Positions 1-11,186 of a stretch of DNA of 14,118 bases are shown here, one piece after another (within the stretch, counting starts at the first letter, position 1; each line of letters starts with the position of its first letter). The notes beneath the pieces are model-generated. The model was not told the origin of the DNA. It ran no database searches and saw only the letters and a list, made by a program, of their open reading frames with translations. The DNA comes from Actinomycetota bacterium (lineage in GTDB: Bacteria > Actinomycetota > Acidimicrobiia > Acidimicrobiales > Ilumatobacteraceae). The position numbers were made by a program, and so were the translations under genes. The stretch covers positions 1-14,118 of the forward strand of contig WLFB01000006.1 of NCBI GenBank assembly GCA_009703975.1, read 5' to 3'.

Positions 1-741
1 ACCCATCGCAACTGCGCCAACTGCAATGTGTGTGCCGACCGAGTGATCTGAAAGTCCAACTCGACAACCAAATTTTTCAACAAGAGTCAACATCGCTCGA
101 AGATTTACATTGCTGGGTGAAGTCGGATAGTCAGTAGTGCAATGCAGAAGTGTGACCCGTTCTTTTAATTCGTGCCTTCCGGCATCGCTAGACAGAGCTT
201 GTTTGCAGGCAATAGTTGATGCTTCTGAAGTTTTATCGGTGGTCATGCCAAAAGCAATTACCCCCATCGCTAATTCGATTTCGTCAATCGTGCTCATGCC
301 GGTTGAAAGAATTATTCTGTCGGCACACCTTGCAACTTCTAACAAAAATGGCGCGTTTGTAAGTTCGCCTGATCCAATTTTGATTGTTGAAAGTTTAAGA
401 TCAGAAACTAAAAATTTAAGACTGTCAATGTCAAACGGTGTTGAGAGAAACTCGATACCACTGGCTTTGCAATATTCAAATAGCTCGCGTTGCTGGGTGT
501 GCGACAACTCAAGGCGCTGCAACATTTCTAGTTGCGTTTCTTGGCCACCGGTCTGCGAAATTTGATAGTCGGCTTTTTTGGCGCTATTTGTAACTATAGA
601 ACTGGCTACAAATGACTGAAATTTAACTGCATCTGCTTTTGCAACTACCGCTGCATCAACAAGTTGTCGAGCAAGACTAATTGAACCGTTATGGTTTACT
701 CCTGCTTCGGCAATGATAAATGTGTTTGGTGTTTTTGTCAT
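1..741 (-). CDS. legI: N-acetylneuraminate/legionaminate synthase family (NeuB/LegI), 3' end outside window
   Basis: The 247 codons visible run open to the left edge; the family is usually about 330-360 residues, so roughly the last third (including any C-terminal SAF/antifreeze-like domain) is missing. NeuB-family enzymes condense phosphoenolpyruvate with an N-acyl hexosamine to make a nine-carbon ulosonic acid in the cytoplasm. Visible family motifs: AEAGVNHNG (residues 11-19), KFQSF (40-44), STPFD (100-104), KIGSGE (121-126), STGM (146-149), HCTTDYP (200-206) and GLSDHS (229-234). The ATG shares one base with the stop of the upstream epimerase gene (TAATG), so translation is probably coupled; no Shine-Dalgarno sequence is seen. 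With LegB- and LegC-type genes upstream, the substrate is more likely 2,4-diacetamido-2,4,6-trideoxymannose (legionaminic acid) than ManNAc (sialic acid). Family membership is very sure; the Leg rather than Neu assignment rests on context. Confidence 0.93.
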   Translation of the reverse strand, partial: MTKTPNTFIIAEAGVNHNGSISLARQLVDAAVVAKADAVKFQSFVASSIVTNSAKKADYQISQTGGQETQLEMLQRLELSHTQQRELFEYCKASGIEFLSTPFDIDSLKFLVSDLKLSTIKIGSGELTNAPFLLEVARCADRIILSTGMSTIDEIELAMGVIAFGMTTDKTSEASTIACKQALSSDAGRHELKERVTLLHCTTDYPTSPSNVNLRAMLTLVEKFGCRVGLSDHSVGTHIAVGAVAMG

Positions 742-1901
742 TAAAAATTGTCGAAGAATATTTTTTGTGTAGTCAACTTCGTATTTTTTATCGTATCGGC
801 GATGCTATTTGCGGTGTTGCCAGAGCCGTATTTGCTTGTAGTTGCAAGACAACGTGCCTTCCACGAGGGAGAAAGTGCTGTCTCAATAGCGGTACGAATT
901 TCGTTATGACTGAATTTGCAGTCAATGATCGAATCAGCGCGAAGCCGACCATCTTGGCGCGTGCCGATATTAATAGTTGGCACATGAAGTGCAGGAGCTT
1001 CAATGATTCCGCTCGAAGAGTTTCCGATAACAACATCAGCAATTCTCATTAAGTTGAGATAATTTTTTTGACCCAGTGCATTGTGCAGAACACGGCGTTT
1101 TGGTTCGCGTAGTACAAATTTAGATATCTCATCATTCACGTATTTGTATCCAGGGTCGGCATTGACACCAGTAAACACGATTGTCGCTTGAGCAAAATGA
1201 TCAAGCGCGGTGAGTAATTCGGTGATTTCAGTAGTCATCGACAATTCGCTTCGTGTCGTCGGATGAACCGTTACCAGCAACAATTCTTGTTGAAGTTCTA
1301 TACCGATTACAGATGCCAGCTCGTCACGTGTCATTTTTTCAATATTTAGTAAGACATCAACTCCGAGTGCTCCAACATTAAAAACTGTGTCCGGTGATTC
1401 ACCAAGTTGAATCAACCTGCGTTGATAATCTTCTGCCGCACAAAAATGAAGATTAGACATCTTTGTGATTGCATGTCTGATGCTGTCGTCAAATGCACCG
1501 GTGGTGACTTCTCCGCCATGAATATGCGCAATTGGAATACCTAAAATTAGGGCGGCTTGGGCTGCACCAAGAATTTCGTATCTGTCGCCTAATACGACGA
1601 CAAGGTCTGGTTTGAGTTTTGCAAAAGCATCGGCAAGTTGCGATGTAGCCCGCCCCAACGCATGAGCTATCTCAAGAACCGAATCATCAGAAAGTTCAAG
1701 ATCAACTAAAGCATCGGCGATGAACCCATCTTGTTCTATGAACTTAATTGTTGAACCGTGTCGTGCAGATAAATGTGAACCAGTGACAATAAGTTGAAAA
1801 TCTATTTGTGAGTCTTGCCTAAACAAAGTCATCAATGGTGCGAGCAGGCCGTACTCGGCTCGTGTTCCGGTAACTACACAAATTTTTCGGTTTGAACTCA
1901 T
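741..1901 (-). CDS. legG: UDP-sugar 2-epimerase (hydrolysing), NeuC/LegG family
   Basis: A 386-residue protein, the usual length for hydrolysing UDP-N-acetylglucosamine 2-epimerases. These enzymes (GT-B fold) invert C2 and release UDP, delivering the free mannosamine-type sugar to the NeuB-family synthase. Visible motifs: GTRAEYGLL near the N-terminus (residues 12-20), VLGDRYEI (103-110), HGGE (128-131) followed by the family-typical TTGAFDDSIRHAI stretch, and GNSSSGIIEAP in the C-terminal half, which normally contacts the nucleotide. The ATG overlaps the aminotransferase stop by 4 nt (ATGA), and its own stop overlaps the synthase start by 1 nt, so it sits inside one operon. In sialic acid pathways this is NeuC acting on UDP-GlcNAc. 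Because a 4,6-dehydratase and 4-aminotransferase precede it, UDP-2,4-diacetamido-bacillosamine (LegG reaction) is the likelier substrate. Substrate choice is inference. Confidence 0.92.
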   Translation of the reverse strand: MSSNRKICVVTGTRAEYGLLAPLMTLFRQDSQIDFQLIVTGSHLSARHGSTIKFIEQDGFIADALVDLELSDDSVLEIAHALGRATSQLADAFAKLKPDLVVVLGDRYEILGAAQAALILGIPIAHIHGGEVTTGAFDDSIRHAITKMSNLHFCAAEDYQRRLIQLGESPDTVFNVGALGVDVLLNIEKMTRDELASVIGIELQQELLLVTVHPTTRSELSMTTEITELLTALDHFAQATIVFTGVNADPGYKYVNDEISKFVLREPKRRVLHNALGQKNYLNLMRIADVVIGNSSSGIIEAPALHVPTINIGTRQDGRLRADSIIDCKFSHNEIRTAIETALSPSWKARCLATTSKYGSGNTANSIADTIKNTKLTTQKIFFDNF

Positions 1902-3076
1902 AATCCTAAGTTTGCGCTACTTGGCACATTGATTAAAGAATTAAGAAGCACTTGCGCGACTGGTAATTCAGCGCGAGGCGAGTTTTCGTACATCGGCAAC
2001 TGATGCAACAGGTTCCATGCTGGTCGACACAAATATCCTTTTGCACGCGAATCTGTCAGCAACTCATTTCGAGTCTGCAAGTTTGGTTTCTTTAGCCGAA
2101 CAGTATTCAGCCAATAATTAGAAGTTGTCCTTTTTGGTTCGCTAACAAACTCGAGAGACTCTGAACTTTTCAGCGCAATGTCATATTTATTGGCGAGGTT
2201 TCGCTTGTTGAGTAAAAATTCGTCTAATCGGTCGAGTTGAGCGCAGCCAAGGGCGGCATTTATATTTGGCATTCGGTAGTTCCAAGCAGTTTCGTCATGC
2301 ATGAACTCCCATTCGTGTGGGAGTTTCGCGGTTGTGGCAAGATGGCGAATTTTTATAGCAAGCGATTCGTCATTCGTAAGAATTGCACCACCACCGCCAG
2401 TTGTGATGGTCTTGTTGCCGTTAAAACTTAAAATTCCACAAACACCAAATGTTCCGGTGTGTTGTTTGCCAACATAACTTCCGAGCGACTCGGCTGCGTC
2501 TTCAACTATTGGCAAACCAAATTCTTTGGCGACCAAAGAAAGTTCTTTAATATCCATTGGGTGCCCAAACGTGTGCATCGGCACGATCGCGCCGATTCGT
2601 CGACCCGTTTTCGCGTTTATCAATTCATCGCCTTGTTGAGTTGTCGCTGACGCAAGGTGTTTTCGTAAAGCGATTGGATCTAACCCAAGTGTGACCGGGT
2701 CGCTGTCGGCAAAGTGCGGGGTTGCACCGCAATGCGCAACCGCATTAGCTGTTGCAACAAAACTTAGCGATGGGATAATCACTTCGTCACCAGGCTTGAT
2801 GCCTACCGAGTGCAGCGCAAGATGAAGTGCACAAGTGCCGTTAACAATCGCGATTACATGTGCAGCACCGGTGATTTTTGAAAGTTGATTTTCGAAACGA
2901 GTGATGAACTCACCAACTGATGAAACCCAGCCAGATGATAAACACTCGGCAACCATTTTGTGTTCATGAGGACCAATATTTGGCTCATGCAGAGCGATCG
3001 TTGATTTTTCTGCTGGTCCTATTACGGAAGTTAGTACTTCAAGAAATTCTCGTGTCGGTAGATCGTAAGTCGTCAT
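1898..3076 (-). CDS. legC: LegC-type PLP-dependent sugar 4-aminotransferase (DegT/DnrJ/EryC1/StrS family)
   Basis: A 392-residue fold-type I aminotransferase that would transfer an amino group from glutamate to the C4 ketone of a UDP-4-keto-6-deoxy-GlcNAc-type sugar. Visible features: an N-terminal HEPNIGPHE segment (30-38), SGWVSSVGEFITRFE (48-62), the aspartate of VEDAAES (D193) that contacts the PLP pyridine nitrogen, and the Schiff-base lysine in FNGNKTITTGGGGA (K222). The longer N-terminus before the NIG motif is typical of the LegC-like subgroup, as opposed to shorter PglE/ArnB-type enzymes. The ATG lies 4 nt after the LegB stop and its TGA overlaps the next start (ATGA). No Shine-Dalgarno sequence is obvious, so translation probably depends on coupling with legB. 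Family certain; the LegC assignment is strengthened by the directly adjacent LegB-type partner. Confidence 0.92.
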   Translation of the reverse strand: MTTYDLPTREFLEVLTSVIGPAEKSTIALHEPNIGPHEHKMVAECLSSGWVSSVGEFITRFENQLSKITGAAHVIAIVNGTCALHLALHSVGIKPGDEVIIPSLSFVATANAVAHCGATPHFADSDPVTLGLDPIALRKHLASATTQQGDELINAKTGRRIGAIVPMHTFGHPMDIKELSLVAKEFGLPIVEDAAESLGSYVGKQHTGTFGVCGILSFNGNKTITTGGGGAILTNDESLAIKIRHLATTAKLPHEWEFMHDETAWNYRMPNINAALGCAQLDRLDEFLLNKRNLANKYDIALKSSESLEFVSEPKRTTSNYWLNTVRLKKPNLQTRNELLTDSRAKGYLCRPAWNLLHQLPMYENSPRAELPVAQVLLNSLINVPSSANLGL

Positions 3077-3080
3077 CTAT

Positions 3081-4073
3081 TTAAATGTTGTACCGATCTG
3101 CCTTGTATCGCGACAAATTACTCGGGTCTGAGAACCAGTCAATTGTTCTTTGTAATCCGATTTGAAAACCTTCGGCACCGTCCAACGACGGCTTCCACTT
3201 GAGAAGTTTTTCGGCTTTTTCAATTGAAGCGTGCAGTCTTTCAACTTCAGAATTTTTAGGGCGGTCACGTTGTTTGTCATTGGCGAGTTTTAGATCAACG
3301 CCCATAAGTTTGGCGATTGTTTTGGCGGTGTCTTCGACAGAGATTTCAAAACCACTGCCAAGATTTATTGTTTCGCCAATAATTGCGTCGCTTTCGGCAG
3401 CGGCGATGAAGCCAGATGCTGTGTCTTCAACAAATGTGAAGTCACGTGTTGGGGAAAGTGCGCCAAGTTTTACTTCTCGGTTTGTTGCAAGTTGACTAAT
3501 AATTGTTGGGATAACCGCCCGCGCGGATTGTCTCGGCCCATATGTATTGAACGGTCGAAGAATTCCGACGGGTAGATCAAATGAAGCATGAAAACTTAAC
3601 GCAAGTTGATCGGCACCAACTTTTGATGCCGCATATGGCGACTGCGGATGCAATGGGTGCTTCTCATCGATTGGTATGTATTGCGCAGTGCCATAAACCT
3701 CGCTTGTTGAAGTTTGTACAACACGCGAAACATTGTGTCGTCGCGCGGCCTGCAAAATATTTAATGTGCCCTTGATATTTGTATCAATATATGTGTCGGG
3801 CGAATGATACGAATATGGAATCGCGATTAATGCAGCGAGGTTCAAAATTACTTCTTGGCCGGAAACGGCAGCATCAACTCCGTGCGGGTCGCGAATATCT
3901 CCAGCGAAAACATCAAGGCTGTCACGAACGGATTGGTTTACATCATCAAGCCATCCCCAAGAATTGAAGGAGTTGTAAAGAACAAATGCTCGCACTTGAT
4001 GTCCGCGTTTAACGAGTGCTTCTACTAAATGCGAACCAATAAATCCATCTGCGCCGGTTACGAGAATCTTCAT
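3081..4073 (-). CDS. legB: LegB-type UDP-GlcNAc 4,6-dehydratase (extended SDR family)
   Basis: A 330-residue NAD-dependent epimerase/dehydratase, full length for the family. It would oxidise C4 and eliminate water across C5-C6 of UDP-GlcNAc, giving the 4-keto-6-deoxy sugar that LegC aminates. Visible features: an N-terminal Rossmann motif GADGFIG (7-13), the FVLYNSFNSWGWLDD stretch (30-44) characteristic of the LegB-like dehydratase subgroup, TSTSEVYG (121-128) with the catalytic Ser/Thr region, the YxxxK pair Y147/K151, and RPFNTYGPRQSARAVIPT (173-190). The tail rich in R/K near PxxSEVERL is also family-like. It follows a small membrane-protein gene by 3 nt and precedes legC by 4 nt, so it belongs to the minus-strand operon. 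A weak AGGT lies about 9 nt before the ATG. Other SDR sugar enzymes are possible, but the subgroup motif and partner argue for LegB. Confidence 0.91.
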   Translation of the reverse strand: MKILVTGADGFIGSHLVEALVKRGHQVRAFVLYNSFNSWGWLDDVNQSVRDSLDVFAGDIRDPHGVDAAVSGQEVILNLAALIAIPYSYHSPDTYIDTNIKGTLNILQAARRHNVSRVVQTSTSEVYGTAQYIPIDEKHPLHPQSPYAASKVGADQLALSFHASFDLPVGILRPFNTYGPRQSARAVIPTIISQLATNREVKLGALSPTRDFTFVEDTASGFIAAAESDAIIGETINLGSGFEISVEDTAKTIAKLMGVDLKLANDKQRDRPKNSEVERLHASIEKAEKLLKWKPSLDGAEGFQIGLQRTIDWFSDPSNLSRYKADRYNI

Positions 4074-4076
4074 TTG

Positions 4077-4388
4077 TTATTGACCTATTGATCCGGTCAG
4101 TTTGGAGACCAAAACTGCCAATATCACTGAAATGAAAACTGCTAACACGACTCCAGAGAAGATGCTAGTGATGGCGACCGCACCTACTGATCGGATATTC
4201 CAAGAATTTGTCGTCAGTGAGGTTAAATTGGAGTCTTGATTCTCCACTTGCACCGCACGCGATTTAGTTGTATTGGAATTTCGATTTTTTGTGACCAACC
4301 ACAACGTAATCAGGCTCAGCACGATGATCGCGAGAGACCTGACCGTAACATCAAGGACGGTAAGTGACATGAGTTTCGACACAACCAC
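4077..4388 (-). CDS. Small two-helix membrane protein of unknown function
   Basis: A 103-residue protein with two hydrophobic segments (about 11-32 and 68-95) separated by a polar linker rich in N, S, T, K and R. I do not recognise a family. Support for it being real: it ends 3 nt before legB on the same strand, its codons look like those of neighbouring genes, the hydrophobic pattern is coherent, and the GTG start at 4388 is preceded by a good AGGAG ribosome binding site 5 nt upstream. An internal ATG at 4370 would shorten it by 6 residues. Its 5' end overlaps the 5' end of the divergent protease gene by up to 20 bp. No known legionaminic acid step needs such a protein; a membrane accessory role is only a guess. 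It could instead be a chance open frame in a divergent promoter region. Confidence 0.6.
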   Translation of the reverse strand: MVVSKLMSLTVLDVTVRSLAIIVLSLITLWLVTKNRNSNTTKSRAVQVENQDSNLTSLTTNSWNIRSVGAVAITSIFSGVVLAVFISVILAVLVSKLTGSIGQ

Positions 4389-5544
4389 GACTGCTCCTAG
4401 CGTATCGCCGGAGGTACCTGAAGAGCATCAAGACAAGGATCAAGTAGTTATTGCGCCGCGTCAGACGAACATGTGGTGGGCAATACCAATGTTCACAATT
4501 GTTTGGATAGTTACTAGTGCGATAATTATTTCTTCACTGGTTCGCGTTAACTTTTGGGAAGTTGCACCTGGTTCTGCAGAGCAAGTTAGCTCTAGATTTT
4601 CGTTTGACAAAGATGCTCTTCAGCTTGCAGATCGGTACAAGCCAACATCGCCAGTTTTATTCGTTACTGCATTTGGATCAAAGCTCTCCGCACTTGACGC
4701 TTTGCTCGGCACGCTAGACCCAGATGTAGATGTATTGAATCGCGTACAAAAATTCGGCGATTCAACACCTGATCAACAGAAGAATCTCGGATATCAGTCA
4801 ATGACAACTGCAAAACAAATTGCAGAATATGTCGCCATGAATCGTTTGGGCTATGAGGTGTCTATTACTTATGGAGAATTAGTTATTGATCGATTTGTTT
4901 GCGAGGCCAAACCGCGTCCACTTAGTGCGTGTTTGCAACTTGGAGTTGGCGACACGATCACATCTTTTGATGGCATCAAGATTCCATCATTGGCTGACCT
5001 GCTTCCGCTTATGAAGAATTATTCGCCAGGCGATGTCGTTAAATTAGAAATCACACCTCATAGAACTACCGATTCAATTACCAAAGAAGTCGAGTTGATT
5101 GCCAGTCCAGATGATCCAAATCGTACGATTATCGGAGTGTGGCCTGCTGACACGCGAATTGTTAAGTTGCCATTTGAAGTTGATATCGACACCGACCTGA
5201 TTGGTGGGCCATCTGCCGGTCTTGCCTTCACATTGGCTCTATTGGACGAGTTAACTCCTGGCGATTTAACAGGTGGAGTTAAAGTAGCCGCGACTGGCAC
5301 GATTGACGGCGACGAAACAGTTGGTGCGATTGGTGCGTTGCGTCAGAAAACAGTTGCCGTCAAAGCCTCTGGTGCCAAAGTATTTTTTGTGCCGAGTTCG
5401 CAATCAGCAGAAGAAATTGAGGTGGCCAAGCGGATTGCGGGATCAAAATTGCGTATTGCTCCAGTTGCAAATCTTGGTGAAGCGCTAGCAATTCTCAAAG
5501 AGATGGGGGGCAGCGACATTTCTAATGACGCGATAGAGCTCTAG
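4369..5544 (+). CDS. Membrane-anchored PDZ / Lon-type (S16) serine protease, YlbL-like
   Basis: With the ATG at 4369 the protein has 391 residues: a Thr/Pro/Glu-rich N-terminus (1-34), one membrane helix (about 37-58), an external region, a PDZ domain (about 180-245) and a C-terminal Lon-type proteolytic domain. The S16 Ser-Lys dyad is visible as S282 in GGPSAG and K327 in GALRQKTVA, with the intervening GTIDGDETVGAIG stretch typical of the fold, so it should be active. Homologues in Actinobacteria and Firmicutes (YlbL type) are surface-anchored proteases of poorly known substrate. The frame stays open upstream (ATG 4324, TTG 4273), but 4369 has an AAGGA about 11 nt upstream and gives a sensible cytoplasmic tail. 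It is followed after 21 nt by the DivIVA-fusion gene. In mycobacteria such a PDZ protein lies directly beside a UPF0182 gene. Function of the domains sure, start moderately sure. Confidence 0.92.
   Translation: MSFDTTTTAPSVSPEVPEEHQDKDQVVIAPRQTNMWWAIPMFTIVWIVTSAIIISSLVRVNFWEVAPGSAEQVSSRFSFDKDALQLADRYKPTSPVLFVTAFGSKLSALDALLGTLDPDVDVLNRVQKFGDSTPDQQKNLGYQSMTTAKQIAEYVAMNRLGYEVSITYGELVIDRFVCEAKPRPLSACLQLGVGDTITSFDGIKIPSLADLLPLMKNYSPGDVVKLEITPHRTTDSITKEVELIASPDDPNRTIIGVWPADTRIVKLPFEVDIDTDLIGGPSAGLAFTLALLDELTPGDLTGGVKVAATGTIDGDETVGAIGALRQKTVAVKASGAKVFFVPSSQSAEEIEVAKRIAGSKLRIAPVANLGEALAILKEMGGSDISNDAIEL
4394..4398 (-). promoter_or_regulatory. Ribosome binding site AGGAG for the small membrane protein
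   Basis: On the minus strand AGGAG lies 5 nt upstream of the GTG at 4388-4386. It is one of the best Shine-Dalgarno matches in the window. It supports GTG rather than the internal ATG at 4370 as the start, and supports the small gene being translated. It lies inside the coding sequence of the divergent protease gene. Confidence 0.5.
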
Positions 5545-5565: not shown

Positions 5566-7677
5566 ATGGCGATTACATTCTCGCGCCCTGACCCTTCATC
5601 CCCTGGTGCGGTTGGGTCAGCACAATTCAATATCGCGAGGCGCGGGTATGACCAAGGTGAAGTTCGTGACTTTTTGAGGATGGTCTCGGCCGAGTTGGCC
5701 AGGCTTCAAGAGCGAGAAAGATTTTTAGAAAGCGAAATGCGCGCGATGCAAACTCGTGGATTGTCTGATCCCGGTGTTCTCGATGAAGCAACGGTTACAA
5801 CGTTGCTCGGCGAAGAGACAGCTCGTGTTTTGTCTGTTGCTCGAGAAGCAGCACAACAGATGCGCATGCGTGCTGCAGAAACTGCGGAGAGATTGGTGCG
5901 CGAAGCAACTTCCGAAGTTGCAAGGTTACGTGAAGAAGCTGAAATTGAAAACGAGCGTCGGCGAAGTGATGCCTTAGACGACAGTGAATCAGAAATAGAA
6001 CTTGCTAAACAGCAAGGTCGCGAAATGATAAACGAAGCTCGCGCGTATAAAGAGAAAATGTTGACTGAGCTCGCACGGCGTCGCGAACTTGCGAAACAGC
6101 AAATCGAACAATTAGTTCGCGATCGTGATCGGTTGATGTCAGCATTTGAACGCGCACGGTTGGCAGCCAATGATGTGATGGGTGACTTGACTGAATTTGA
6201 TGAAGCGGCTGGAGATCTAAAGCAAGCCATCCCTGAGGGAGTGGTTGACGAATCATTGCACAATGTTGTGCTTTTTGATCGAGAAAAATTCGAAGATGAC
6301 ACTTTGGATAATTTGCGCCCAGAAGTTGCAAAGTTTTCTGACTTTGAATCATCGCAACAGATAGAACAAATTTCGCTCACTACAAATGACAAAGAGTTAA
6401 CTTTTGTTGCCGAAGAACCTTTTTTGACGTCGTCAACTGAATCGCAAGTTGAATCTGGTTTATTGCAAGAACTAGTAGTAACGCAACCGGAAGTAATGCC
6501 GGAAGTAGAACCTGAAATCAAATTAGAAGACCGGCCAGAAGTAGAACTAGAAGTAAAAGCAAATTTACTGCCAGAGACAAAACTAGAAGTAAAGGCAATG
6601 GCACTGCCAGAAGCAAAACTAGATGTAAAGCCAGAACCAGATGAAGGCCATAGAGCGAATGTCATTCAGTTATTCGGCAGAACTTCACGTCGCTTGCATC
6701 CTTCAACTGATGCACCGCCAACTGAAGTACCAGAAGTAAAAACAGAAGTCATTGACACTGTCAAAGCGCTCGACACAAATACGAAGTCGGAGCAAAAGAC
6801 TGCAGTAGCTGCGCCAAAAAAGTCAAATGTGGATGACCTCTTTGCGAAATTACGAGAGTCTGGTGCGAGTTCTGTGGCAAGTTCAATTAAACAAGCCGAG
6901 CCTGTTCAGAAAAAAGTCGTTAAGTCTGACGTGCCGAATGCAACGACTAGTACGACTAGTACAACTAGTACAACGAACCAAACACCGGTTTCGGTGAAGC
7001 CGGATCCGCAGATTTTTACAAAACGTGATGAGGCACTTGCACCAATAGTCGAAGCACTGTCTAAAAAGCTCAAACGTGTTCTCGCTGACGAAGAGAACTC
7101 AGTTCTTAACTACTTGCAAAACAAAAAAGCTCAAGTTGCATTAGAAACAGTTCTGCCGAGTTTTGATAGTCAAGTTCAGTCATTTGTCGAAGCCACCAGC
7201 AAAGATTTGATTGAAGCCGCGATGGCTGGTGCGCAATCACTTTCAAAAAGTCTTAAAGCCGATCTTCGAAAAAAGATTAGTAACACGACGGTGATGCAAG
7301 TTATGTCCAAAAAACTTGCCGATGCAATTGTGCTTCCATTGCGAACACGAATTCAGAAATGCGTCGAGAAAAGTGCCGGTGACACAAGTGAGATGTCAAG
7401 TTTGATTCGCACCGTGTACCGCGAATGGAAAATGCAGCAGATAGATAAACTTGTCAGCGATATTGCTCGTCTCGCCTACAGTCGAGGCGCCTATCTAGTT
7501 CTTGATGCGGGAACAAAAGTCTGTTGGATGGTTGATCCGAACGGTCCTGCATGTTCAGACGCAGAAGATAATTCTCTCGCCGGCACAATCGCACTTGGAG
7601 AAAATTTTCCTACTGGTCACGAGCATCCTGTTGTTCACTCAGGATGTCGTTGTCTTGTAGTTCCATCGCAGAGGTAG
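5566..7677 (+). CDS. DivIVA-domain protein with a phage Mu gpF/SPP1 gp7-like C-terminus
   Basis: A 703-residue, probably cytoplasmic protein. Residues about 18-60 match the DivIVA/Wag31 N-terminus (FNIARRGYDQGEVRDFLRMVSAEL), which in relatives binds curved membrane. Residues about 80-205 form a long charged coiled coil (many R/E/A heptads). Residues about 225-485 are low-complexity and acidic, with four 12-residue repeats (311-358) and a Thr/Ser run (460-470). Residues about 486-640 are again helical. The last 80 residues carry C653, C663, then H685, H687, H691 and a terminal GCRC (C694, C696). This resembles the metal-binding-like end of phage minor head proteins (a D..C motif, then H..CRC), preceded by IARLAYSRGAYLVL, where those proteins have an IARTE-type helix. 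DivIVA homologues in actinobacteria are usually 200-400 residues, so this is unusually long. It lies between the protease and UPF0182 genes with 21- and 10-nt gaps. A cell-pole or division scaffold role is inferred; the role of the C-terminus is unknown. Confidence 0.85.
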   Translation: MAITFSRPDPSSPGAVGSAQFNIARRGYDQGEVRDFLRMVSAELARLQERERFLESEMRAMQTRGLSDPGVLDEATVTTLLGEETARVLSVAREAAQQMRMRAAETAERLVREATSEVARLREEAEIENERRRSDALDDSESEIELAKQQGREMINEARAYKEKMLTELARRRELAKQQIEQLVRDRDRLMSAFERARLAANDVMGDLTEFDEAAGDLKQAIPEGVVDESLHNVVLFDREKFEDDTLDNLRPEVAKFSDFESSQQIEQISLTTNDKELTFVAEEPFLTSSTESQVESGLLQELVVTQPEVMPEVEPEIKLEDRPEVELEVKANLLPETKLEVKAMALPEAKLDVKPEPDEGHRANVIQLFGRTSRRLHPSTDAPPTEVPEVKTEVIDTVKALDTNTKSEQKTAVAAPKKSNVDDLFAKLRESGASSVASSIKQAEPVQKKVVKSDVPNATTSTTSTTSTTNQTPVSVKPDPQIFTKRDEALAPIVEALSKKLKRVLADEENSVLNYLQNKKAQVALETVLPSFDSQVQSFVEATSKDLIEAAMAGAQSLSKSLKADLRKKISNTTVMQVMSKKLADAIVLPLRTRIQKCVEKSAGDTSEMSSLIRTVYREWKMQQIDKLVSDIARLAYSRGAYLVLDAGTKVCWMVDPNGPACSDAEDNSLAGTIALGENFPTGHEHPVVHSGCRCLVVPSQR
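6496..6639 (+). repeat. Four tandem 36-bp units coding for 12-residue repeats
   Basis: Units begin at 6496, 6532, 6568 and 6604, in frame with the DivIVA-fusion gene. They encode MPEVEPEIKLED, RPEVELEVKANL, LPETKLEVKAMA and LPEAKLDVKPEP. The last two units agree at 28 of 36 bases; the first is the most diverged. The Pro/Glu/Val/Lys pattern suggests an extended charged linker between the coiled coil and the C-terminal part. Copy number may vary between strains. Confidence 0.8.
6943..6969 (+). repeat. Three tandem 9-bp units encoding Thr-Thr-Ser
   Basis: ACGACTAGT, ACGACTAGT and ACAACTAGT follow each other in frame and encode TTS three times inside the disordered linker of the DivIVA-fusion protein. 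A fourth degenerate unit (ACAACGAAC) follows. Such short perfect units are prone to slippage in whole codons. Confidence 0.8.
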
Positions 7678-7687: not shown

Positions 7688-10654
7688 GTGCGGAACCCTT
7701 CCGATTTACCAAGATCTCCGTTTCCTCGTCGTAATTCGTCAGGAGGTTTTGGTTTCAACGCGTTTAAAAAAGGCCGAGCAATTTGGACCGTTGTATTCGC
7801 AATATTTGTAGTCGGCGGAATCTCAGCTCGAAGCATTTCTGGTTTCTATGTTGACTTGCTGTGGCATGATGTTTTGGGTCGCACAGATATTTTCTGGGGC
7901 GTAATCACCACGAAAATTTCTCTCGCCGCAATATTCGTGGCCGTTTTCGCGGTTGCTATGTTGATTAATCTTTGGCTAGCAGACCGTCTCGCACCAGAAA
8001 ATGTTCCGGTGTCTGCAGAGCAAAGAGCACTCGATGGATATCGGCAGTTGGTCGCAAAGCGCCAATGGCTTGTTCGCATTGTGGTTTCAGTTGTACTCGG
8101 CCTACTTGTTGGACTGCCTGCCACGGCACAGTGGCAAGATTGGCAATTGTTTCGTCACGCTCAACAGTTCGGCATACAAGACCCGTTATTTTCGCGCGAT
8201 TTAAGTTTTTACATTTTCCGTCTTCCATTTCTTGAATTCTTGGTTAGTTGGGTGTTGGCAGCACTCGTATTAATCACGCTCGTTACAACGATGATCCACT
8301 ATCTCAACGGTTCGATTCAGATGCAAATGCAGGGTCGTCGGGTTACTCCTCAAGCAAAAGCCCACCTCTCGGTATTGTTTGCTCTAATCGCGTTGTCACG
8401 AGCCGCGTCATATTGGCTAGGTCGCTTTGAATTAACACGATCAACACGTGGCGTGGTGCAGGGCGCAACCTATACAGACGTAAATGCCCAACTACCTGCA
8501 ACAAGTTTGATGATTCTGGTTTCGATCGCGGTAGCAGCTTTATTTTTATGGAATGTTCTACAAAAAGGATGGCGACTTCCTGTTTTGGCAACGATGCTTT
8601 GGGTTGTCGTCGCGGTTGTCGCTGGCGCAATTTACCCTTCGCTTGTGCAGCGTTTTTCTGTGCAGCCGAACGTCAGTACAAAAGAGCTTCCTTACATTGA
8701 ACGCAACTTGAGTGCAACAAAAATTGCAATGGGTTTGAATGATGTCAAACAAGTTGATGTCAAATATGGCTTGATCACAGCAGCAGATGTCTCTGCAGAT
8801 GCCGAACCATTGCGCGATGTTCGACAACTCGACCCGTTGCAGATGCGTGATCGCTTTGTCTTGGACGAAGGTCAAACTTCGTATTACGCGATTCGTGATC
8901 TAGATGTTGACCGTTACGCGATTGATGGTCGAGTCCAACAAGTGCTGGTTGGCGCCCGAGAGTTAAATACTGATGGCATACCGAACCGCACATGGGTTTC
9001 ACGACATCTCCTATATACACACGGCTGCGGACTCGTTGTTGCACCAGCAAGCAAAGTCACAGTAGACGGCCGACCAATTTATACGAACCTGGATGTGAAG
9101 CAACCTGAGTTGTATTTTGGTGAAGGCCTTGATTCGTATGCGTTAGTAAAAAGTCGTGAAGTAGAGCAGTCATGCGCTGATGGTAAAACAAGTGCATTTT
9201 CTGGAACGGGTGGTGTGCAACTTTCGTCGTTGATTCGCCGAGCGGCATTTGCCGTACATTTTGGCGAGTACAACCTTCTTGGGTCAGGCTTGATCACACC
9301 GCAATCACAAATTATGTTTTTTCGAAATATTCGTGAGCGTGCAGAAAAAATTGCACCATTCTTAAAAATGGACTCTGACCCTTATCCGGTCGTAGTCGAC
9401 GGAAAAGTCATGTGGGTGCTGGATGCATTTACGACAACCGATCGTTATCCGTATGCGCAACGCGCGAATATCGATCAATTGAGCAGCGGTAGCGGACTAA
9501 ACACCAACTTTAACTACGTTCGTAACAGTGTAAAAATTGTCGTTGATGCCTATGACGGTTCAATGAAGTTTTATGTCGTAGATCCAAAAGATCCAATTAT
9601 CACTACTTGGCAATCCGTTTATCCAAAGTTGTTTACTTCAGTGGCACTCGCACCGAAGCAACTAGTTGAACACTTTAGATATCCAGAGGATTTATTTAGA
9701 GTGCAAACAAACACTTATGGTCGATATCAGTTCGAAGATGCGACAATGTTTTTTAATCGCAACGCTGCGTGGAGCGTTGCTCAAGCTCCCGCAATTGAAC
9801 CGGAAGGCGTAAGTGGGGCAGTATCTGGCGGACTCGTCGATGACTTAAACACACTAAACACTGGTGACGTGCGCGACGCAAGTGTGGCGCGGTTCGAACC
9901 GTATTACACGATGTTTCATGAGCCAAATAGTGCCCAAAAAACTGGTGTGTTTTCAATGTTGCGTCCGTTTGTACCGTTCTCAGCAGATAACGCAAGAAAA
10001 GAATTGCGTGCGTTTATGACAGTTTCAAGTGACCCAGCAACTTATGGTCAGTTGACAGTTTTCAAAATAAACGACCCGCTACCAGAAGGACCAGCAACAG
10101 TCGCCGCAGAAATTGGCAGTGACCCTGCGGTTTCTCAGCAGATAACTTTGCTCGACCAAAGAGGCTCTCGAGTAATTTATGGTGACTTGCAAATAGTCAA
10201 CATCGGAAAAGGTTTGGTCTATGTTCGGCCATTATTTGTGCGACCAGATGACCCATCGGCAAAACAAATATTTGTCAGAAAATTTCTTGCGTCATATAAC
10301 AACAAAGTGGTTCTCGCTGACGATCTAACTTCAGCAATCGCTAAATTATTCCCGGGTTTCAAAGATAATCTTGGCGACAGAATTAATGACGGTTCTGCTG
10401 CGCCAGCTGAAGACACAGCAACTAATAGTGCGCCAACCGACGACACAGCAACGACTGATACAACTTTGCCGTCAAGTACGGGCGGCAATTCAGCTTTGGA
10501 TACTCCGAACGCATTGCTAGCAAAAGCTGAAGAGTTATTCGCAGAAGCCGATGCGGCACTTGGTAATACTCCGCCGGATTTTTCTTTGTATCAGCAGAAA
10601 CTCGCTGAAGCTAGAAGCTTGATTAGTCAAGCAATTTCACTAATCGGCGGCTGA
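7688..10654 (+). CDS. UPF0182 family integral membrane protein
   Basis: A 988-residue protein, full length for UPF0182 (COG1615), a family widespread in Actinobacteria with no established function. Seven hydrophobic helices fill the first third: about 32-53, 74-96, 129-147, 181-204, 226-244, 272-291 and 298-319. The short loop after the first helix holds the family-typical FYVDLLWHDVLGRTDIFW. Residues from about 320 to 880 form a large domain, predicted to be extracytoplasmic, with the conserved PNVSTKELPYIERNLSATKIAMGL entry and VWVLDAFTTTDRYPYA-like segments. A Thr/Asp/Ser-rich linker and a C-terminal helical tail (AKAEELFAEADAAL) close it, as in many relatives. The GTG at 7688 is the only sensible start; the next in-frame methionine is inside the second helix. 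It follows the DivIVA-fusion gene by 10 nt and converges with the coiled-coil gene. No frameshift or missing segment was seen. Confidence 0.93.
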   Translation: MRNPSDLPRSPFPRRNSSGGFGFNAFKKGRAIWTVVFAIFVVGGISARSISGFYVDLLWHDVLGRTDIFWGVITTKISLAAIFVAVFAVAMLINLWLADRLAPENVPVSAEQRALDGYRQLVAKRQWLVRIVVSVVLGLLVGLPATAQWQDWQLFRHAQQFGIQDPLFSRDLSFYIFRLPFLEFLVSWVLAALVLITLVTTMIHYLNGSIQMQMQGRRVTPQAKAHLSVLFALIALSRAASYWLGRFELTRSTRGVVQGATYTDVNAQLPATSLMILVSIAVAALFLWNVLQKGWRLPVLATMLWVVVAVVAGAIYPSLVQRFSVQPNVSTKELPYIERNLSATKIAMGLNDVKQVDVKYGLITAADVSADAEPLRDVRQLDPLQMRDRFVLDEGQTSYYAIRDLDVDRYAIDGRVQQVLVGARELNTDGIPNRTWVSRHLLYTHGCGLVVAPASKVTVDGRPIYTNLDVKQPELYFGEGLDSYALVKSREVEQSCADGKTSAFSGTGGVQLSSLIRRAAFAVHFGEYNLLGSGLITPQSQIMFFRNIRERAEKIAPFLKMDSDPYPVVVDGKVMWVLDAFTTTDRYPYAQRANIDQLSSGSGLNTNFNYVRNSVKIVVDAYDGSMKFYVVDPKDPIITTWQSVYPKLFTSVALAPKQLVEHFRYPEDLFRVQTNTYGRYQFEDATMFFNRNAAWSVAQAPAIEPEGVSGAVSGGLVDDLNTLNTGDVRDASVARFEPYYTMFHEPNSAQKTGVFSMLRPFVPFSADNARKELRAFMTVSSDPATYGQLTVFKINDPLPEGPATVAAEIGSDPAVSQQITLLDQRGSRVIYGDLQIVNIGKGLVYVRPLFVRPDDPSAKQIFVRKFLASYNNKVVLADDLTSAIAKLFPGFKDNLGDRINDGSAAPAEDTATNSAPTDDTATTDTTLPSSTGGNSALDTPNALLAKAEELFAEADAALGNTPPDFSLYQQKLAEARSLISQAISLIGG

Positions 10655-10680: not shown

Positions 10681-11064
10681 TTATTGAGTTCGACGAATTT
10701 GTTCAACTAGTTCGGCAAGGTCTTGCCTGAAAGCAATTTCGTATCGAGCTTGTTCGTTGGCGATTCTGATTTGACTAACACGAAGTTGTTCTAATGCTTC
10801 GCTCGAAACACTGTCTTGTGAAGACTTAGTCATAGTCTCAATTTCTGATCCAAGTTCGTGAATCTGATTTGAAAGCTCGGTGGTCATCGTGGTAACCCGT
10901 TGATCGATGATTGAAATTTTTTGATCTAAGCCATTGGTCAATGCTGTCACGAGCGAGAGGGCATTTGTTCGTTTAGTTAATTCTTCGCGCAGTGCAACGA
11001 GTTCTGTCTTCAGGGTTTCTAAGTCAGACTGTGAGGCTTTTTGAGTTCGGTTGAAGAGTGCCAT
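10681..11064 (-). CDS. Small coiled-coil protein of unknown function
   Basis: A 127-residue soluble protein without signal peptide or membrane helix. Nearly the whole length after residue 12 is predicted coiled coil: heptad-like stretches such as LETLKTELVALREEL (15-29), then IDQRVTTMTTELSNQIHELGSEIETM, and a last helix ending in DLAELVEQIRRTQ. I do not recognise a family; a structural or partner-binding role would be a guess. It converges with the UPF0182 gene (26-nt gap) and is transcribed away from the initiator tRNA. A CATAAT hexamer on the minus strand (11080-11075), 10 nt before the ATG, could be its -10, and an AGGTG sits only 2-3 nt from the ATG. Length, coherence and lack of overlap make it a likely real gene. 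Confidence 0.75.
   Translation of the reverse strand: MALFNRTQKASQSDLETLKTELVALREELTKRTNALSLVTALTNGLDQKISIIDQRVTTMTTELSNQIHELGSEIETMTKSSQDSVSSEALEQLRVSQIRIANEQARYEIAFRQDLAELVEQIRRTQ

Positions 11065-11109: not shown

Positions 11110-11186
<77 letters not shown>

Follow-up and report, generated by a model that had tools for sequence, protein, structure and literature searches.

What is a domain of phage head proteins doing at the end of a bacterial polarity scaffold? The question is raised by a gene in a 14,118-nucleotide stretch of DNA (hereafter the window; contig WLFB01000006.1 of assembly GCA_009703975.1) from a freshwater actinobacterium of the family Ilumatobacteraceae, class Acidimicrobiia. 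The gene (5566–7677, plus strand) encodes a 703-aa protein that begins as a DivIVA protein and ends in a MuF domain. Judged from sequence and predicted structure, it represents an old DivIVA-type protein, the second such kind in Actinomycetota, with a MuF C-terminus; viewed as a protein, it is related to DivIVA and differs by a new domain. The best overall explanation, to which we give a probability of roughly 60%, is that this old DivIVA-MuF fusion acts as a scaffold on which an envelope partner docks. If true, this would be the domestication of a virion protein inside a cell-polarity scaffold, found in several classes of bacteria and holding a fixed place next to a single gene. The interest lies in the combination: a domain derived from virions sits on a polarity scaffold, the locus is fixed and the canonical gene is missing. 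We found no prior description of a DivIVA-MuF fusion in a literature search whose coverage leaves out most subscription papers.

The two ends of the fusion protein

The gene is a single intact open reading frame (ORF) of 703 codons, open throughout as a preliminary description of the sequence had stated, and the minus strand in register with it contains many stops. A serine-rich 319-aa ORF lies in another minus-strand frame (5706–6665), antisense to the DivIVA part, and probably only shadows the codons of the coiled coil. The DivIVA start proposed in the preliminary description is confirmed by Pfam: PF05103 matches residues 18–129 at 37.4 bits against a curated cut-off of 28, and is the sole Pfam match of the protein at E ≤ 0.1. 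AlphaFold2 (AF2) predicts a long helix of the DivIVA kind behind the head (residues 74–219). The PF05103 head, the helical region and an RGY segment are all common to the fusion and the canonical actinobacterial DivIVA, Wag31.

The C-terminal domain (residues 482–703) is, by sequence profiles and predicted folds, almost certainly homologous to the MuF/gp7 minor-head domains of phages. Three lines of evidence agree on this identity. First, it is supported by phage protein profiles. The domains of 30 order-level relatives were scanned singly at a lax limit (E ≤ 10). The family phrog_2662, a portal-MuF family annotated as portal protein, matches 28 of them (best 1.4e-14), PF04233 (Phage_Mu_F) matches 13 (best 3.6e-5), and more head-morphogenesis and minor-head PHROG families match as well. 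The window domain itself matches phrog_2662 at 1.1e-5, with its residues 6–212 of 214 aligned to positions 489–708 of 717, the portal end of the profile; its MuF match ends at most two residues from the C-terminus. When a profile built from the 30 domains is run against 12 phage proteins, it matches the end part of the Brevundimonas phage Strzyga portal at 8.7e-16 and, more weakly, Sonali, D3112 and HATV-3. Second, a profile-profile comparison by hhalign joins the host profile to Mu gpF and six relatives, which had been gathered via similarity to Mu gpF and never via the host domain (an eighth record was omitted). The probability is 83.9 and the E-value 7.7e-6 in this one-template comparison, and the controls fail (0.86 for the reversed alignment and no more than 0.22 for five column shuffles). 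Third, the predicted fold is that of predicted phage head proteins. AF2 models residues 480–703 with a mean predicted local distance difference test (pLDDT) of 90.4 and a predicted template modelling score (pTM) of 0.88, and the BFVD collection of predicted viral structures returns 25 matches at E ≤ 0.001. Among the 12 that were named, 10 are portal, head-morphogenesis or capsid proteins, and the other two are called “Zeta toxin domain containing” and “Uncharacterized”. Template modelling (TM) scores on the query are 0.69–0.71 for the three best matches, of which two are portals and one is the “Zeta toxin domain containing” protein.

These results bear out the relation to phage head-morphogenesis proteins that the preliminary description had proposed, including the structural comparison it had suggested; the PF04233 comparison it had also suggested succeeds for 13 relatives and gives nothing for the window domain. 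Several search results, that null among them, count against the phage reading. PF04233 misses both the window protein at E ≤ 0.1 and the window domain alone at E ≤ 10. The 30-domain profile has no significant match to Mu gpF taken alone (E 0.28). In a tblastn search of 50,697 phage records, the domains of two relatives yielded one match (E 0.03) and three matches (best E 0.001). A fold search of the PDB with the MuF-like domain gave no match at E ≤ 0.001. The two nulls with PF04233 and with Mu gpF alone, together with the lack of any PHROG match below E 0.2 for the full-length fusion, would suit a Cys-rich tail that arose by convergence on an ordinary DivIVA and has no relation to phages. Convergence is, however, already contradicted, with PF04233, phrog_2662, BFVD, hhalign and the Strzyga portal match agreeing on MuF while the hhalign controls fail.

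How does the fusion compare with other MuF proteins? Phage portal-MuF fusions, such as phrog_2662 and the Strzyga portal, are close in that their C-terminal MuF is matched nearly over its full length and has a very similar knuckle layout, but there MuF is joined to a portal and here to DivIVA. The window domain is homologous by profile to Mu gpF and its relatives; SPP1 gp7, another PF04233-type protein, lay outside that comparison. According to the available text of one paper, the MuF polymorphic toxins of temperate phages likewise carry MuF outside plain head assembly (PMC5576092). In these proteins, the available part of a second paper indicates, the toxin is fused behind MuF (PMC6316719), whereas MuF is the C-terminus of the fusion, in which Pfam finds DivIVA alone and no toxin domain. 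Contigs from IMG/VR contain 20 loci with the domain, and most of their domain ORFs end in a host-like manner (W ... C-x2-C ... PPAHPGCRC).

The domain ends in a Cys/His knuckle. The H..CRC segment noted at residues 691–696 is exact in the window protein (H691-S-G-C694-R-C696). Two other motifs of the preliminary description survive in altered form. The helix described as IARxxxxxxGA exists and reads IARLAYSRGA, with five residues rather than six between IAR and GA. D657 and C663 are both present, as “D..C at 657-663” implied, but they lie six apart and hence form no tight motif. Of 34 order-level loci that were aligned, four without the terminal part were left out; in the remaining 30 relatives, whose identity to the window domain is as low as 31%, W654, C694, C696, R504, P682 and G684 are invariant and C663, D665, D668, N669, H691 and R695 are kept at 90% or more. 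The alignment used for the domain tree has 37 rows from the window class, 18 from other classes and 17 from phages, each required to reach profile position 195. With rows chosen in this way to reach the profile end, C694 and C696 are kept in 37/37, 18/18 and 17/17 rows, respectively; H691 is kept in 31/37, 16/18 and 16/17, and C663 in 33/37, 16/18 and 13/17. The ligands of a putative zinc knuckle (C663, H691, C694 and C696) are mostly conserved, and most MuF host domains are likely to have a site with a structural or metal-binding role. At position 666, Cys occupies 26/37, 18/18 and 16/17 rows, and 11 of the 37 window-class rows, the window included, have Ala. Cys653 is almost confined to rows with Ala at 666, and every counted row has Cys at 663 and/or 666. 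A swap of ligands is possible, although the pattern lies mostly inside one clade.

Distribution, descent and the canonical DivIVA

How old is the fusion? A whole-protein search of 61 related genomes, the window’s own included, found a match to some part of the protein in 57. Numerous family codes within the order have the C-terminal part, which mostly scores better than the DivIVA part in genomes outside the window family. A search limited to residues 480–703 gives 3130 protein matches at E ≤ 0.001, the best 120 being listed. Within the window class, 130 of 198 sampled genomes have the domain, the kind of class-level conservation that the preliminary description had asked about; of the 68 genomes without it, 20 are listed, and 11 of those 20 are ~1-Mb genomes of genus code g274. 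Within the genus of the window, 26 of 28 genomes have a match. In a sample of the phylum, 57 of 396 genomes match, one of them (G436) falsely, and the 18 matching genomes outside the window class belong to two classes. The class of G200 has matches in 16/66 genomes and that of G225 in 8/24. By eye, 13 of the 18 out-of-class loci begin with a DivIVA motif; of the other five, L175 and L187 are cut by the contig end, L192 is a short ORF, and L174 and L183 have no in-frame motif. Loci named from the genome collection are the best 80 of 513. Among these 80, one domain (L094) is 99% identical to that of the window, and the genome titles include Acidimicrobiaceae, Ilumatobacteraceae and acIV, among others. 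Several loci with an Acidimicrobiia fusion (L104, L106, L132, L143 and others) come from genomes titled Bifidobacterium breve, and these titles are evidently wrong.

Two unrooted trees bear on descent. In the MuF-domain tree, 55 host rows are split from 17 phage rows by a 99/99 branch; the tree has 140 columns, its bootstrap is not fully settled, and its phage rows were found largely via similarity to the host domain. In the tree of DivIVA halves, one 100/99 branch separates 27 proteins of the fusion locus, including a DivIVA without MuF from genome G046, from 14 further DivIVA proteins found in this set of genomes. Because the host MuF domains form one group and the DivIVA halves form one group, a single capture and fusion, followed by vertical inheritance with losses, fits these sequence data best. 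The direction of capture was most likely from phage to host, given the breadth of MuF in phages, since the trees themselves give no root. That same lack of a root leaves room for the reverse, in which phages took the domain from actinobacteria. MuF-type proteins are, however, found in phages of very different hosts, one of them archaeal, and all examined host forms sit at one locus; hence we regard the reverse direction as very improbable.

What has become of the canonical DivIVA? The canonical gene lies in the order sepF-divIVA-ileS, and the fusion differs from it in lying at another locus (PDZ gene, fusion, UPF0182), in length (703 aa versus 325 aa for the product of G173), in carrying MuF, and in having a DivIVA half that falls in a separate tree group. 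The Wag31 equivalog NF050102 scores the fusion at only 33.9 bits against a cut-off of 260. Genome G173, of the window family, carries a divIVA gene between sepF and a gene for a class I tRNA synthetase (assigned by Pfam, with ileS recognized by eye). With the G173 DivIVA as query, G000, G004, G005, G016, G026, G028, G032 and G310 yield the fusion only. In all nine window-family genomes readable at this site (G000, G004, G005, G016, G026, G028, G030, G036 and G310), only a small ORF fits between sepF (Pfam) and ileS (by eye), and there is no divIVA. G032 was left uncounted because its contig breaks off at this site, as were G387 and G105, members of another family with a different gene order. 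The genomes are incomplete (the window’s own, G000, is at 75.7%), yet they do contain the sepF locus. The sole PF05103 match over the cut-off in G000 is the fusion; a 210-aa ORF on contig 55 (L206) has a sub-threshold DivIVA match of 13.6 bits and lies, by eye, between coaD-like and DUF177-like ORFs. This position presumably recalls that of mycobacterial SepIVA, and the ORF is perhaps a SepIVA-like protein. Other genomes retain two or more DivIVA proteins. How these freshwater actinobacteria grow and divide without divIVA at its usual site is a question that the locus raises.

A fixed locus and a possible docking role

What might the fusion do? Its neighbours provide the best-supported link. 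We examined 111 loci, consisting of the 80 named nearest relatives and 31 from the G genomes, and 110 of them have MuF. A gene for the membrane protein UPF0182 lies directly downstream of the MuF gene, on the same strand and within 200 bases, in 110 of these 110 loci. A gene for a protein with PDZ and Lon-type S16 protease domains lies directly upstream in 78 of the 97 loci with room for it. Of the 19 loci without a direct PDZ gene, 16 are in other classes; in the other three (L096, L117 and L121), the fusion is split in two ORFs with the PDZ gene ahead of them. The PDZ-S16 protein scores 105 bits against the SepM model NF041438, below its cut-off of 200. The mechanical TTG start of its gene (4273–5544) is overlapped by a 103-aa minus-strand ORF (4077–4388), and the true start may be further downstream. 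A comparison set of 24 genomes without a MuF match includes 17 with UPF0182, at 19 loci. The PDZ gene lies directly before UPF0182 in 7 of the 19, with gaps of at most 220 bases; one (in G046) has a DivIVA gene without MuF between the two, and for the other 11 the short flank contains no PDZ gene. Since the pair is adjacent in those seven loci, the fusion gene seems to have been inserted into, or lost from, a PDZ-UPF0182 pair.

UPF0182 is a large, conserved membrane protein for which we found no function in the literature, and the fusion may offer a first handle on it. Its sequence has no relative among solved structures at E ≤ 0.001, and it is also present in Corynebacterium glutamicum, which served as a control. 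The mycobacterial UPF0182 protein is, we presume, Rv3193c. In the part of the report available, Rv3193c is among the transposon sequencing (TnSeq) hits of a mutant of the divisome gene rv0954, alongside genes of division and of the cell wall (PMC8093794). An envelope role for UPF0182 is in keeping with this.

How could docking work? The DivIVA head and coiled coil would oligomerize and assemble on inward-curved membrane, at the septum and the poles. The 260-residue acidic linker would give the MuF domains outward reach, and the MuF domain, repurposed as a docking head, or a motif in the linker would bind an envelope partner. A candidate for such a partner-binding peptide is the linker helix at residues 421–440, in which L425 is invariant and R430 is kept at 90% or more (27 rows, another class included); a loose pattern of its motif occurs in 65 of 95 ORFs of at least 450 codons. 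Because gene order is fixed, UPF0182 would be the prime docking candidate, perhaps by direct binding. The PDZ-S16 protease would act on the outer side of the membrane, and an envelope-building or quality-control module would thereby be concentrated at sites of growth and division. The docking role may be a reused one because the phage relative SPP1 gp7 docks onto the portal: in the available text of two papers, gp7 is directed by the portal into the procapsid, is present in few copies and aids infection (PMC6316719; PMC5576092). That a curvature scaffold recruits UPF0182, specifically through its captured MuF domain, is a tentative proposal that falls somewhat short of even odds. A fuller version is unlikely as a whole: a portal-docking domain would have been captured once, before the divergence of at least three Actinomycetota classes, would dock UPF0182 and, across the membrane, the PDZ-S16 protease as a polar or septal envelope machine, and would have displaced the canonical DivIVA in streamlined freshwater lineages.

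Could the domain bind DNA instead? The preliminary description had suggested a link from the cell pole to DNA or to a protein cage. A captured domain that kept the DNA binding of gp7 could anchor the nucleoid at the pole. Indeed, a title cited by PMC5576092, a source available in part, terms SPP1 gp7 a DNA-binding protein, and the window domain is basic, with an isoelectric point (pI) of 8.6, like several phage domains. However, pI is at most 6.4 in 23 of the 30 host domains, making general DNA binding unlikely as a shared property, and no chromosome-segregation family appears among the scanned neighbours; a tether of this kind is improbable. Neither link, to DNA or to a cage, has gained support. 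Seven neighbouring proteins compared with PHROG include no phage structural family, the one match being of unknown function and on the S16 domain; three sugar-pathway neighbours were covered by Pfam only. The seven hold no portal or capsid gene, so the fusion does not have the gene context of a minor-head protein.

Could the domain instead protect against phages, as a decoy that poisons portal assembly in infecting phages? Its relatives are phage proteins, and defence by blocked virion assembly does exist, according to the accessible part of one report (PMC10884400). A decoy is nevertheless hard to reconcile with a gene fixed beside UPF0182 at every MuF locus and kept by nearly the whole genus. 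PADLOC has zero matches for the fusion or UPF0182; its match to the S16 protein is weak (E 0.0016). We give the decoy very little credence.

Further points weigh against the docking scaffold itself. First, the full-length AF2 model, built from 27 rows, is weak as a whole (pTM 0.37), and the localization and binding of the fusion are properties that we infer. Second, UPF0182 and the PDZ gene co-occur without the fusion, and UPF0182 is therefore independent of it; an N-terminal UPF0182 tail with an RNPSDLP-type motif (7688–7740 in the window; L094–L173), seen in many window-class rows, is absent from the other MuF-carrying classes looked at. Third, in G046 (L282) the order is PDZ gene, DivIVA without MuF (a 333-aa ORF) and UPF0182, and this locus seems, from the sequence, to have lost the domain. 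Fourth, 12 of 131 class matches (in 11 of 130 genomes) extend no further than profile position 165 of 207, short of the knuckle, although some of these short matches are weak and the knuckle may be diverged there rather than lost. Hence the Cys/His conservation asked for in the preliminary description extends to C694 and C696 in all complete rows and not to these shorter matches. Because of the short matches and the G046 protein, parts of the domain look dispensable, and the knuckle seems to be so in some lineages. Both observations would suit a helical bundle that merely lengthens or multimerizes the scaffold while its knuckle decays. A mere spacer is nonetheless improbable, given that Cys694 and Cys696 are found in 55 of 55 complete host rows from three classes (rows chosen to reach the profile end) and that outside the family the C-terminal match outscores the DivIVA match in most of the order’s genomes.

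Coordinates and remaining genes of the window

Table 1. The fusion gene, its parts and its two partners at the locus, with positions in the window.
Feature	Position	Strand	Basis
PDZ + Lon-type S16 protease-domain protein, SepM-like	4273..5544	+	PF05362 over cut-off, PF13180 just under
DivIVA-MuF fusion gene	5566..7677	+	Open frame; PF05103 over cut-off; some part matched in 57/61 related genomes
DivIVA head, residues 13-65, with ARRGYD segment	5602..5760	+	PF05103 at 18-129; AF2 helices 13-17, 23-26, 30-65
Long helix, residues 74-219, presumed coiled coil of the DivIVA type	5785..6222	+	One AF2 helix, pLDDT mostly high
Acidic disordered linker, residues 220-480	6223..7005	+	pLDDT mostly <50; residues 216-480 net charge -20
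Conserved short linker helix, residues 421-440, VDDLFAKLR motif	6826..6885	+	AF2 helix; conserved L425/R430
MuF-like domain, residues 482-703, helical bundle + C-terminal knuckle	7009..7674	+	phrog_2662, hhalign, BFVD folds, AF2
Cys/His knuckle, C663 ... H691-C694-C696	7552..7653	+	Column counts; similar motif in phage MuF domains
UPF0182 membrane protein	7688..10654	+	PF03699 7e-240; start 10 bases past fusion stop codon

The other genes of the window lie on both sides of these three. On the minus strand, positions 1–4073 contain genes of the NeuB, UDP-GlcNAc 2-epimerase, DegT aminotransferase and GDP-mannose-dehydratase types, which are retained in the nearest relatives and perhaps make up a pathway for a nonulosonic (sialic-acid-like) sugar. 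Downstream, a minus-strand gene at 10681–11064, convergent with UPF0182, encodes a 127-aa coiled-coil-like protein that has no family match over a cut-off, and it adjoins UPF0182 in many window-class loci. A tRNA-Met gene (CAT) at 11110–11186, on the plus strand, lies between this coiled-coil gene and an HpaI-like aldolase gene.

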